DNA of 29,032 nucleotides, taken from IMG/VR virus record IMGVR_UViG_3300020472_000123, positions 1-29,032 of that record, one strand, 5' to 3'. The notes below the pieces were generated by a model that saw only the letters and a list, made by a program, of their open reading frames with translations, did not search any database and was not told the origin of the DNA. The position numbers were made by a program, and so were the translations under genes. Each line of letters starts with the position of its first letter. Within the stretch, counting starts at the first letter, position 1. The DNA is from a virus. Positions 6,356-9,687 of the stretch are shown piece by piece.

Positions 6356-7609
6356 ATGAAAGTAGCTATTGTTGGTGGAGGTACAGGTGGAGTAACTTGT
6401 GCCATGGCACTGGTTTCCAGATCACATGAATGGATTAAGGTTGATATAATACATGATCCAACTGTACCTATATTTGGTGTAGGTGAATCATTAGGACATG
6501 ATTTCGTACAGTTAATACGTGGAGCAACCCAATTTTCCTTTCCGTTTGATTTAGAGAAATTAAACGCAAAGATAAAACAGGGTATTATGTTTGTTGACTG
6601 GCAACAGTCACAGAACTATCCTGATTCTACTAATGGGTACATGACCTTATCATGTCAAGCCCTTCATGCAGATACGTTTGCATTGAGGGATTTTGTTTTG
6701 CCTAGAATGGCACATTATTGGTCTCACAAGTTTAAAGAGATTCACGGTCATGTAGACAGAATTTGGCAAGACGAATATAAGGCATATATCCAATTAGGCG
6801 AAAAAGCGCTAGAATACGATTTTGTCATTGATGCTCGAGGAATCCCAAAATCGGTAGATGACACTTTTGAGTATGTTGACAGTATTCCAGTAGATTCCGC
6901 TGTTTTGAATATGTGTCCTCATCCTGGCGATTGGGATTTTACCTATTCTCTTGCAACTCCCGATGGATGGATGTTTGGAGTTCCTGTTCATCATAGGAGT
7001 AATTGGGGATATCTCTTTAATCGGAGTATTACTACAGATGAGGAGGCAATCACAAACTCACATGAGTTTCTACATACTCATAGAATCCCCAAAGCCCATA
7101 TAAACTATGATGTTCTTAAGGAGAACGTTCATGTGTTAAAATGGGAAAATTACCATTCTAAGAAGATTGCTGATCGTAGAATTCTTAGACAGGGTAATAT
7201 GTTATTTAATTATGAACCTCTTCACGGATATGCAGTTCCTCTGTATACTGTTATGGCAACACAGTTCTTAGATTACTTTGTTCGTGAGTTAGGAGAAGAT
7301 CAGTTAAATTACAATTATAGAGAGTATATTGATTCATTCAGAGATCTTATTGCTTTCCATTATCATAAAGGAAGCGTTTATGACACTCCTTTTTGGAAAA
7401 ATGCAAAGGAAATCTCTAATAAGAAATTAGAGGGTTCGGAGTGGATGAAGATTTGTATGAATAAACAGTTTAGTCTTGAGGGCGCTGTTCAACTAGACGA
7501 TGCTTGGACAACTTCACCAATTGCTCACCCAATGTTTATATGGGAGATAGATCAGGCGTTTAAGTTTGGATATTTTGACCATTTACCACAACACCATTTA
7601 GTAACATGA
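6356..7609 (+). CDS. Flavin-dependent (tryptophan) halogenase-like protein
   Basis: The product has 417 residues. An N-terminal Rossmann dinucleotide motif (IVGGGTGG, residues 5-12) is followed by GVGES (41-45), the usual halogenase 'GVGE[AS]T' site, and KIKQGIMFVDW (72-82). In the last motif Lys74 matches the lysine that carries hypohalite in PrnA-type enzymes. The second halogenase motif WxWxIP is degenerate (WMFGVP, 205-210), so the substrate or even the reaction may differ. The protein is shorter than the roughly 530-residue bacterial enzymes. It overlaps the carbamoyltransferase gene by ATGA, so the two are translated together. Related gene pairs occur in other marine T4-like phages; the product is unknown. 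Confidence 0.75.
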   Translation: MKVAIVGGGTGGVTCAMALVSRSHEWIKVDIIHDPTVPIFGVGESLGHDFVQLIRGATQFSFPFDLEKLNAKIKQGIMFVDWQQSQNYPDSTNGYMTLSCQALHADTFALRDFVLPRMAHYWSHKFKEIHGHVDRIWQDEYKAYIQLGEKALEYDFVIDARGIPKSVDDTFEYVDSIPVDSAVLNMCPHPGDWDFTYSLATPDGWMFGVPVHHRSNWGYLFNRSITTDEEAITNSHEFLHTHRIPKAHINYDVLKENVHVLKWENYHSKKIADRRILRQGNMLFNYEPLHGYAVPLYTVMATQFLDYFVRELGEDQLNYNYREYIDSFRDLIAFHYHKGSVYDTPFWKNAKEISNKKLEGSEWMKICMNKQFSLEGAVQLDDAWTTSPIAHPMFIWEIDQAFKFGYFDHLPQHHLVT

Positions 7610-9141
7610 AATTATTAGCACTTCGTTTAGATTCCCACGATTCAAATGTAACTTACTTTGATGGTGAAAGGATAAGATATAGGTCTTTTGAGAGAGATCT
7701 TCAAATTAAACATTTTGGGTTTGAAGGTCTTTATGGTTGGACAAAGATAATCAAGGAATGGAATATAGTACCTCAAGAGGTAGATGCTGTAGGTATCGTT
7801 ATGGACTCTCATGTTCATAATGAGGTGGAATACGATCCACAGAAACAAACAGAATCAGTCGAAATTCCTGTTTTTAGAGATTTGGGGTTTAATTGTGTTA
7901 TTCATAGAATTGACCATCATTATGCTCATGCGTTAAGTTTTTGGCCTTTAGAAGTTGAACCAAATCTCCATTTTGTGTTTGATGGGTTTGGTGATGATTG
8001 GATGTATAGAAGTGTGTGGAGAGATGGAAAACTGATTGATTATGGTAAGTCAAATGCTCAAGATATCTTCAATTCAGCTAGTCTTGGGTTTATAATGTCA
8101 CATTTGGGTATGATTATCCAATTGCAAGGTAATTATCTTGACTATGCTGGTAAAATAATGGCAATGAAGGCATATGGTCAGGAAAGTCCAGATGTAGTTC
8201 CAGTAGACCATATTGATAAATTGGATCAATTATGGGATTTTAGTAAATTAGAACCTAATGCTCAGGATATGCAATATATCCTTGATTATGTTCATACTGC
8301 TCATGGACATACAGAACAGTTATTTTTAAAGCATTTTCAAGAATTTGCTCAGGATGGCGATATTATTGGTTACTCTGGTGGTATCGCACAGAATACTATT
8401 ATTAATAAGGTACTGAAAGATAATTTCCCTAATCTTGTTATACCACCACATGCGAATGATCAGGGTTTAAGTCTTGGTGTTATTGAATATCTAAGAAGAA
8501 CTTATAATGTGGATCCATTTGATACTACTGGATTTCCATTCTGGCAGGAGGATGATTCACCTAGACCTACTGAGAAGACCATATGGTCTAGTCACATGCC
8601 TAGACCTTCTGAGAAGACCATTAAAGACACTGCTGAACTACTTGCACAAGGAAAGATTGTTGGGTGGTATCAGGGTCATGGCGAGATAGGCCCAAGAGCA
8701 TTAGGGAATAGAAGTATACTAATGAATCCTTTTGACCCTCATGGGAAGGAGTATATAAACAACAAAGTAAAACATAGAGAACCCTTTAGACCTTTTGGTG
8801 CGTCTGTATTGGAAGAAAAGGTATCTCAGTACTTCTATTGGAATGGCCCTTCACCTCATATGTTATATGTTGCTGATGTCTTAGAACCAGAGAAGTTTCC
8901 TTCAATTACTCATGAAGATGGTACTTGTAGGATGAATACAGTATCTAAAGAACATGAAGATTATTATGCGTTGTTGGAGGAATATGAAAGATTGACAGGA
9001 GTACCGATACTACTTAATACTTCTCTCAATGATAGCGGAAAACCCATTGCTAATAGTTTATGTGATGCTTTGGGGATCTATTATAAGAGCGATTTGGATG
9101 TTTTAGTACATGGTGATACAGTAAAGGTTAAAACATTATAA
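7606..9141 (+). CDS. NodU/CmcH-type carbamoyltransferase
   Basis: The 511-residue protein has the two-domain layout of O-carbamoyltransferases. The N-terminal kinase-like domain carries DHHYAHALSFWP, FDGFGDDW and SGGIAQN. The C-terminal YrdC-like domain carries GWYQGHGEIGPRALGNRSI, KHREPFRPFGASVL and LLNTSLNDSGKPI. The family makes carbamoyl-AMP from carbamoyl phosphate and moves the carbamoyl group to a hydroxyl of a sugar or antibiotic. The phage could decorate a glycan, nucleotide or small molecule together with the halogenase-like partner. An in-frame 39-nt tandem duplication (8560-8621) lengthens the linker between domains. It starts on the ATGA overlap and is followed by the riboswitch promoter. 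Confidence 0.88.
   Translation: MKLLALRLDSHDSNVTYFDGERIRYRSFERDLQIKHFGFEGLYGWTKIIKEWNIVPQEVDAVGIVMDSHVHNEVEYDPQKQTESVEIPVFRDLGFNCVIHRIDHHYAHALSFWPLEVEPNLHFVFDGFGDDWMYRSVWRDGKLIDYGKSNAQDIFNSASLGFIMSHLGMIIQLQGNYLDYAGKIMAMKAYGQESPDVVPVDHIDKLDQLWDFSKLEPNAQDMQYILDYVHTAHGHTEQLFLKHFQEFAQDGDIIGYSGGIAQNTIINKVLKDNFPNLVIPPHANDQGLSLGVIEYLRRTYNVDPFDTTGFPFWQEDDSPRPTEKTIWSSHMPRPSEKTIKDTAELLAQGKIVGWYQGHGEIGPRALGNRSILMNPFDPHGKEYINNKVKHREPFRPFGASVLEEKVSQYFYWNGPSPHMLYVADVLEPEKFPSITHEDGTCRMNTVSKEHEDYYALLEEYERLTGVPILLNTSLNDSGKPIANSLCDALGIYYKSDLDVLVHGDTVKVKTL
8560..8621 (+). repeat. In-frame 39-nt tandem duplication within the carbamoyltransferase gene
   Basis: Bases 8560-8582 and 8599-8621 agree at 22 of 23 positions and are offset by 39 nt (13 codons), giving PRPTEKTI and PRPSEKTI in the protein. 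Between them, AGACCATATGGTCT (8576-8589) is a perfect 14-bp palindrome. The repeats sit in the interdomain linker, so the reading frame and motifs are kept. Confidence 0.8.
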
Positions 9142-9167: not shown

Positions 9168-9196
9168 TTGCATATATACTATACATGTGTTAATAT
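9168..9196 (+). promoter_or_regulatory. Promoter of the riboswitch locus
   Basis: TTGCAT (9168-9173), 17 bp, TAATAT (9191-9196). The start would be at about 9203, exactly the first base of the first aptamer (ATCGTTCA). That coincidence strengthens an otherwise moderate match. Confidence 0.55.
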
Positions 9197-9202
9197 GCAC
9201 AT

Positions 9203-9248
9203 ATCGTTCAGTCCACTAGGACCGCAAGTAAGCCGACTCGGAACGGAA
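9203..9248 (+). ncRNA. Glutamine-riboswitch-like aptamer 1 (glnA / Downstream-peptide RNA family)
   Basis: The element has the compact three-stem junction of these RNAs. P1 is CGTTC (9205-9209) with GAACG (9241-9245). P2 is GTCC-ACTA-GGAC (9211-9222). The conserved joining strand is CGCAAGTAAG (9223-9232). P3 is CCG-ACT-CGG (9233-9241), sharing one G with P1. The core CGTTCA and GCAAGTA are the family hallmarks. These aptamers bind L-glutamine and control nitrogen genes or short peptides in cyanobacteria and are reported from marine phage-like DNA. It is complete and directly abuts a second copy. Confidence 0.75.
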
Positions 9249-9434
9249 TATCGTTCATCCCATGATCCCCTTTCTATTAGCTACTTCTTTAACCTGCTCT
9301 GAGGCCTATACCCTCGTCGATAAGATGAGTGAATATAGAGTCGAAGAGGAGACTAGATCAGAAATGATCGAGATTGTTAAAGAGGAGACGGAAGGATGTC
9401 TTTGGGACGCAAAAGCCGACTAAAGGAACGGAAT
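9249..9434 (+). ncRNA. Glutamine-riboswitch-like aptamer 2, split by an ORF in the P2 loop
   Basis: The 5' half ATATCGTTCATCCC (9248-9261) matches aptamer 1 at 12 of 14 positions. The 3' half (9404-9434) contains GGGACGCAAAAGCCGACT, then GGAACGGAAT, near-identical to 9219-9249. P1 would be CGTTC/GAACG and P2 TCCC/GGGA. Instead of a 4-nt P2 loop there are 142 nt, starting with the ATG (9262) of a 53-codon ORF. The stop TAA (9421-9423) falls in the P3 loop. P3 is weaker than in copy 1 (CC/GG). Translation and aptamer folding would exclude each other. Confidence 0.6.
9262..9423 (+). CDS. 53-aa protein encoded inside the second aptamer
   Basis: The ORF begins MIPFLLATSLTCSEAYTLVD and ends in CLWDAKAD. 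It has a short hydrophobic N-terminus with Cys12, a charged helical middle (EEETRSEMIEIVKEETE), and a second Cys47 near the end. That pattern suggests an exported or disulfide-containing small protein. I recall similar cyanophage peptides with a CxWDAxAD end. There is no Shine-Dalgarno at normal spacing. Its ATG directly follows the 5' strand of P2 and its stop lies in the 3' half of the same aptamer, so initiation may depend on RNA fold and therefore on glutamine. Confidence 0.65.
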   Translation: MIPFLLATSLTCSEAYTLVDKMSEYRVEEETRSEMIEIVKEETEGCLWDAKAD

Positions 9435-9466
9435 TAAAACCCCCAACTACTTTAGGAGTTAATCCA

Positions 9467-9589
9467 ATGGCACAAGTCACATACCGTGGTGTTAAGTACA
9501 ACACCAATGATCGCAAGCAAGAATCCTGCAATAAGTCAGAAATGACTTATCGTGGCGTTAAGTTCCAAAAAGAACTTTGCAATGCTTGA
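9467..9589 (+). CDS. Two-repeat YRGVK peptide (DUF4278-like), riboswitch target
   Basis: The product has 40 residues and carries two copies of one motif: QVTYRGVKYNT (residues 3-13) and EMTYRGVKFQK (25-35). Each copy has a Cys a short way after it. Cyanobacterial DUF4278 proteins carry a single TYRGV-Y/F motif and often lie behind glutamine or Downstream-peptide riboswitches, so context and sequence agree. ATG 9467 is preferred over an in-frame TTG at 9374 because AGGAG (9453-9457) lies 9 nt upstream. A weak AACT/AGTT hairpin could cover that site. The role is unknown, probably nitrogen-related regulation by protein binding. Confidence 0.75.
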   Translation: MAQVTYRGVKYNTNDRKQESCNKSEMTYRGVKFQKELCNA

Positions 9590-9612
9590 TCGAAATCTTG
9601 CATACTAAGATG

Positions 9613-9640
9613 GGGGACTCCTAACCGAGTCCCCTTTTTT
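9613..9640 (+). terminator. Rho-independent terminator of the riboswitch unit
   Basis: GGGGACTC (9613-9620), loop CTAACC, GAGTCCCC (9627-9634), then six T. Confidence 0.95.
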
Positions 9641-9687
9641 ATTCTATATAATGTGAATGGGTTTTTCCTATGAAAACAGGAGAAGTT

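Follow-up and report, generated by a model that had tools for sequence, protein, structure and literature searches.

Organisation of the locus

The window, i.e. the whole stretch of DNA analysed here, is an IMG/VR virus record of 29,032 bases which carries what we take to be genes of a cyanomyovirus, psbA and talC among them (names assigned from the translations). The locus of interest contains two copies of a riboswitch-like aptamer, a small open reading frame (ORF) nested in the second copy and a short downstream gene. Its features are listed below (R1 is a covariance model described further on; SD, Shine-Dalgarno).

9168-9196, + strand: degenerate promoter TTGCAT-17-TAATAT, just 5' of copy 1, proposed on the basis of relatives
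9203-9249, + strand: aptamer copy 1, compact (RF01739, 30.5 bits; model R1, 22.7 bits)
9250-9262, + strand: aptamer copy 2, 5' half, with P1 strand CGUUC (9252-9256) and P2 strand UCCCA (9258-9262)
9262-9423, + strand: nested ORF of 53 codons in the P2 loop of copy 2 (phrog_504, E 3.2e-13)
9403-9431, + strand: aptamer copy 2, 3' half (model R1, 23.1 bits; covariation; binding residues as in PMC6698751)
9420-9425, + strand: CUAAAG, aptamer core and stop codon, proposed anti-SD strand (R/Y covariation across loci)
9450-9458, + strand: CUUUAGGAG, anti-SD partner (9450-9455) and SD sequence AGGAG (9454-9458) of the DUF4278 gene
9467-9589, + strand: DUF4278 gene (MAQVTYRGVKY..., 40 aa), proposed regulated gene (PF14105, 28.2 bits, cut-off 25.3)
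9612-9643, + strand: intrinsic terminator 3' of the DUF4278 gene (9-bp stem, then a T run)

Copy 1 is built from P1 (9205-9209/9241-9245), a P2 with a 4-nt loop and the core CGCAAGUAAG. In copy 2, P1 pairs 9252-9256 with 9426-9430 and P2 pairs 9258-9262 with 9403-9407; the 3' half consists of the P2 strand UGGGA (9403-9407), CGC (9408-9410), a linker bearing the stop codon, the P1 strand GAACG (9426-9430) and G9431, which forms a long-range pair with C9410. The 5' half of copy 2, announced by the original prediction at 9248-9261 with 12 of 14 bases identical to copy 1, is indeed present, but it lies at 9250-9262 and 11 of the 14 bases match.

The 53-codon ORF that had been noticed in the P2 loop of copy 2 was recovered at 9262-9423. 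The A of its AUG (9262) doubles as the last paired base of the 5' P2 strand; the frame then continues across the 3' P2 strand and ends within the aptamer core, at the stop UAA (9421-9423), so that start and stop both fall within the aptamer boundaries. This stop had been assigned to the loop of P3; it actually comes directly after the supposed P3, within the linker that leads to P1, and precedes the 3' strand of P1.

A promoter scan of the window returned none above threshold; at the same place, relatives carry TTGACT-17-TATAAT. An inverted repeat of the GGTCTATAATAGACC type encloses the -10 region directly 5' of the aptamer, in the window (9185-9202) as at about 100 loci; TTGACT precedes this region by 17 nt and a late-promoter-like CTAAATA motif stands between the two. 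The repeat is a possible operator or 5' hairpin. Separately, the gene at 7606-9141 contains a short in-frame tandem repeat (PRPTEKTI / PRPSEKTI, 8563-8622).

Survey of related loci

IMG/VR was scanned with the 3' half alone, requiring no 5' half, ORF or stop codon. The scan set comprised at least 134 non-duplicate places, including the window itself plus 18 loci of annotated phages; one (L109) was a chance match and was removed, leaving at least 133 true loci. Among the 133 loci listed, 103 have the ORF-in-P2 layout, composed of CGTTCA (CGTTGA in three), the P2 strand, ATG and the ORF, and 30 are ordinary compact aptamers, hairpins with an 11-26-nt insert that is often UUCG-like. The layout thus recurs in other cyanophages, where the original prediction had proposed looking for it, and these include the isolates P-SSM7, P-SSM4, P-HM2, P-RSM4, ACG-2014g and S-SSM6b, for which the public annotation uses the same AUG. 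In eight of nine genomes there is a single type-1 aptamer. Moreover, a Synechococcus-phage version has matches in 370 GenBank phage records. Transcript data for P-HM2 genes are not mentioned in the main text of one paper.

The position of the ORF relative to the RNA is precise. In 95 of the 100 ORF-class loci listed, the core GACURAAGGAACGG supplies the stop codon as its URA, and in 90 of 100 the contiguous P2 includes one or more bases of the AUG (all three in 32). The exceptions retain the RNA core: in three loci (L023, L086, L103) the ORF ends with UAG inside the 3' P2 strand, in L069 it ends earlier and in L078 it reads through.

Among 386 cyanobacterial genomes, a strict pattern found no ORF-bearing glnA (type 1) aptamers with 95-156-nt loops, and P2 loops of the hosts vary freely up to 116 nt without the ORF layout. 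Three bacterial glnA aptamers (L202, with a 116-nt P2 insert, L231 and L244) have unusually long P2 inserts (81-116 nt). A glnA-type 3' half was also seen in contigs labelled as marine Alpha- and Gammaproteobacteria (SAR116, SAR86; L144, L149, L159, L172 and others), whereas a review describes glutamine riboswitches as restricted to cyanobacteria. In addition, a manA RNA (RF01745, 162-188 bits) adjoins the tandem locus in several relatives (L003 2158-2355, L007 1018-1203, L008 1994-2179, L014 and L017).

Covariance-model scores and putative ligand

The original prediction had pointed to the Rfam models RF01704 and RF01739 as a check, and these went part of the way. Copy 1 scored 30.5 bits with RF01739 (E = 0.0064 over the window) and 20.9 bits with RF01704, under the respective gathering scores of 35 and 33, and copy 2 had no match to either model in the window. 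Some relatives exceed the gathering score of RF01739 (L064, 41.4 bits; L068, 39.6 bits; L018, L004 and L005) or that of RF01704 (L008 and L018). Model R1, constructed from compact, ORF-free relatives only, recognised copy 1 (E = 6.6e-5) as well as the 3' half of copy 2 (match 9397-9431, E = 5.2e-5), which bears out the proposal of two head-to-tail glutamine-riboswitch-like aptamers. No covariance model, from Rfam or custom, bridges the insert of copy 2. R1 finds the 3' half alone, the 140-nt insert being beyond its reach; that the two halves pair is therefore a conclusion from comparative evidence. These results also show why standard covariance-model scans overlook ORF-split aptamers.

The residues described as contacting glutamine in the glutamine-II and glutamine-I aptamers (C1, G2, G18, C19, C39, G40 and G41; PMC6698751) are all present in both copies of our alignment. 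The core departs from RF01739 in having GCAAGUAAG or GCAAAAG in place of GGAAGUAGG, and the two parts of loop E do not come together in either copy, since copy 1 has AGUA without GAA and copy 2 has RAA without AGUA. Glutamine is therefore no more than a likely ligand.

RNA structure of the split aptamer

The strands of P2, although separated by 140-190 nt, covary (UCCCA/UGGGA, UCCUUA/UAAGGA, UCCUCA/UGAGGA, UCUAUG/CAUAGA, UUCUUA/UGAGAA). On average 6.29 contiguous base pairs form, a value that drops to 4.94 when the 3' halves are shuffled and that none of 2000 shuffles reached. Across 67 distinct sequences, five of the six P2 pairs changed on both sides and 91% of cells were paired; the covariation value was 0.203 versus 0.090, with 0/500 shuffles reaching the observed value and every slid control lower. 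In the same sequences, P1 is 100% paired. Both P1 and the aptamer core are invariant, and because of this invariance neither contributes covariation support. P3 is weak and is absent in variants shorter by 3 nt. RNAalifold applied to 11 close relatives returned conserved pairs in P1 and P2 only, and none in the ORF interior.

The mean probability of P2 formation is 0.75 for native sequences and 0.47 for versions in which synonymous codons of the ORF body were shuffled. The folding energy of the window ORF has a striking z of -4.2. Against synonymous shuffles, the nested ORFs have a z of -2.58 and ordinary phage genes (60 stretches of the window) a mean z of -1.33; ordinary genes of the phage already fold better than their shuffles, and we therefore count ORF folding as mild support.

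The comparative data indicate that the two halves of copy 2 form one aptamer, whose P2 covaries across the ORF. Chance similarity of the halves is excluded by the 103 ORF-type and 30 compact arrangements among the loci listed, and by the covariation. Copy 2 could otherwise be imagined as a dead remnant split by the ORF, leaving copy 1 to work alone, a reading that would explain why the Rfam models miss copy 2 in the window. It conflicts with the covariation of P2 across the ORF, on which we reject it, and with the invariance of the core in the 67 distinct sequences; it is very improbable. The 3' half, whose conservation the original prediction had named as the test of this reading, is matched by a covariance model and kept by every relative, including those whose ORF ends upstream of it. 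Indeed, the RNA is kept where coding has no need of it, both in compact UUCG-type copies and in loci whose ORFs end before the core (L023, L086, L103, L069).

Nested ORFs and their predicted proteins

The ORF family of copy 2 has a dN/dS of about 0.27, with changes at codon positions 1:2:3 of 703:294:1068 (excess at the third). By this substitution pattern, the nested ORF is a selected protein-coding gene. In the window it matches phrog_504, a family of unknown function, and proteins of this type have two invariant cysteines and a predicted helical hairpin. Their tail WDAKAD, encoded by the aptamer core, is predicted to be disordered, as expected if the RNA dictates the sequence of the tail.

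Copy 1 also bears an ORF in at least 37 loci (e.g. L003 1546-1793, L007 about 1290-1527, L132 about 7255-7490, and at least 34 further loci). These ORFs, of about 66 codons, are of the phrog_6471 type and have a dN/dS of 0.19; their product is a predicted helical hairpin without significant match in the PDB. Their AUG is in or beside P2, and in some cases lies deep inside a P2 helix of 10 bp; as stop they use a codon of the 3' P2 strand or of GCAAGUAAG, or one located a few bases before it. P2 of copy 1 likewise covaries in ORF-bearing loci (5.30 versus 3.96 when shuffled, 0/2000). Profile comparison aligned the two nested families over both cysteines (probability 79%, E 1.6e-5), as distant relatives. 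This kinship hints at a duplication of the aptamer-plus-gene unit, which may have been copied as a cassette.

Among the loci listed, the states of copy 1/copy 2 were ORF/ORF (30), ORF/compact (8), compact/ORF (46) and compact/compact (16). As all four combinations exist, the ORF is optional for DUF4278 control. This, together with host P2 loops that reach 116 nt without the ORF layout, would suit another arrangement, in which P2 is a permissive site where a promoter-proximal gene is translated constantly, while P2 is kept for the DUF4278 switch and the two do not communicate. A gene merely housed there could end in the loop, but 95 of the 100 ORF-class loci listed have ORFs that pass P2 into the core and 90 of 100 have an AUG overlapping P2; moreover, a translating ribosome must open the aptamer, which makes full independence physically unlikely. 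We regard such an arrangement as unlikely, though worth keeping in mind.

The DUF4278 gene and a proposed anti-SD pairing

The downstream gene recognised by its YRGVK motif belongs to DUF4278, which fits the glutamine control that had been supposed: this family is under glutamine-riboswitch control in cyanobacteria, with the riboswitches acting as ON switches (PMC6316151). A YRG-type gene is found downstream in all 126 testable relatives among the loci listed.

The core CU-R-AAG is complementary to CUU-Y-AG, which overlaps the SD sequence of the DUF4278 gene. Among the loci listed, the R/Y pairs are A:U in 46, G:C in 37, G:U in 38 and A:C in none, an association with a Fisher probability of 3e-10 on raw data and 2e-8 on unique leaders, in a statistic that ignores phylogeny. 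The R/Y covariation is best read as a putative anti-SD expression platform built from the stop codon, and it ties the choice of nested stop (UAA or UGA) to the DUF4278 leader.

The location of the stop codon in this covarying strand is what translational coupling would predict: a ribosome terminating at UAA 9421-9423 would cover CUAAAG, free the SD sequence (9454-9458) and turn DUF4278 on. There is a precedent in another riboswitch system, where PPE2 expression depends on an upstream ORF (PMC11260477). However, the anti-SD pairing is present equally in compact copies without an ORF and so did not arise for coupling, and the R/Y association is silent on ribosomes. Coupling of this kind seems to us improbable, more so than a gene simply housed in P2.

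Proposed mechanism and significance

We therefore favour the following reading as fairly probable: DUF4278 of T4-like cyanophages is controlled by a tandem glutamine-type riboswitch whose P2 stem-loop serves as a slot for a small gene, and aptamer folding competes with nested translation. The glutamine-dependent steps are transposed from the ON-switch behaviour of known glutamine riboswitches. Without glutamine, the core CURAAG would pair with CUUYAG at the ribosome-binding site and DUF4278 would be off; P1 and P2 would be open and the nested AUG usable, mostly while the RNA is being transcribed and still lacks its 3' half. The nested ORFs have poor SD sequences (best match of 3-4 nt), so initiation may depend on nascent RNA lacking the 3' half. 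With glutamine, P1, P2 and the core would close, burying the nested AUG at the end of P2, and CURAAG would be withdrawn, allowing DUF4278 to be translated. A ribosome on the nested ORF would melt the aptamer and finish on its core, from which we infer that aptamer folding and nested translation exclude each other. The layout probably makes sensing and translation compete; nevertheless, P2 together with its coding stem may be closed whether or not ligand is bound, and glutamine would then have no switching effect on the nested ORF.

In its fullest form, the competition model describes protein-coding aptamers in which the gene is a limb of the sensor: glutamine would hide the nested start and expose the next gene, and one RNA would give a glutamine-set choice between two phage proteins, or three when both aptamers are loaded. 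We advance this version as a tentative idea, somewhat less probable than not.

Several consequences follow from the locus. One conserved RNA stretch is both a putative ligand-binding fold and a gene, and its bases are shared by P2 pairing, the start codon, codon usage, the stop codon and the anti-SD strand. The natural variants at one locus (compact, ORF-bearing, early-stop and read-through) make the competition between folding and translation testable. The arrangement also accounts for short cyanophage genes with oddly conserved ends.

Comparison with known systems

The phage element resembles group I and II introns that carry ORFs in peripheral loops: in both, the two sequences flanking a loop-borne protein gene come together as the core of a functional RNA. 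It differs in lacking splicing and endonuclease, in being a putative metabolite sensor and in encoding a small helical protein.

Like the type 1 glutamine riboswitch (glnA, RF01739), the phage aptamers have the strand order CGUUCA-P2-core-GGAACG, a downstream DUF4278 gene and the known tandem occurrence; unlike it, their core is CGC...GAACGG instead of CGG...GAACGC, P3 is shortened or missing and a protein gene is found in the P2 loop. With type 2 (Downstream-peptide, RF01704) they share the CGC/GAACGG long-range pair of the crystal structure (PMC6698751) and the short downstream DUF4278 genes known from marine picocyanobacteria (PMC6316151). The P2/PK enclosing helix of type 2 has no match seen in the phage aptamers, and the peptide gene of type 2 is 3' of the aptamer, whereas the phage gene is inside. 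The available text of two reports describes cyanophage and methylophage glutamine riboswitches without mention of a nested gene (PMC9964418, PMC9004378).

The original prediction held that no described riboswitch carries a gene inside its ligand-binding domain. This is contradicted by the metE B12 riboswitch of M. tuberculosis, in which a translated ORF, uMetE2, lies within the aptamer extension P9-P10 and its translation is thought to exclude ligand-induced folding (PMC11260477). Phrase searches of the literature, with subscription papers mostly outside their coverage, returned no closer case. An ORF inside an aptamer is thus already known, and the phage case is a further variant rather than the first. 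The two systems differ in that uMetE2 has 15 codons, a UUG start and limited conservation, whereas the phage ORFs have 49-69 codons, fall into two cysteine-bearing families and are under purifying selection. Furthermore, unlike uMetE2, the phage ORFs have a start and a stop made of aptamer bases, occur at about 100 loci and can be present in both tandem aptamers.
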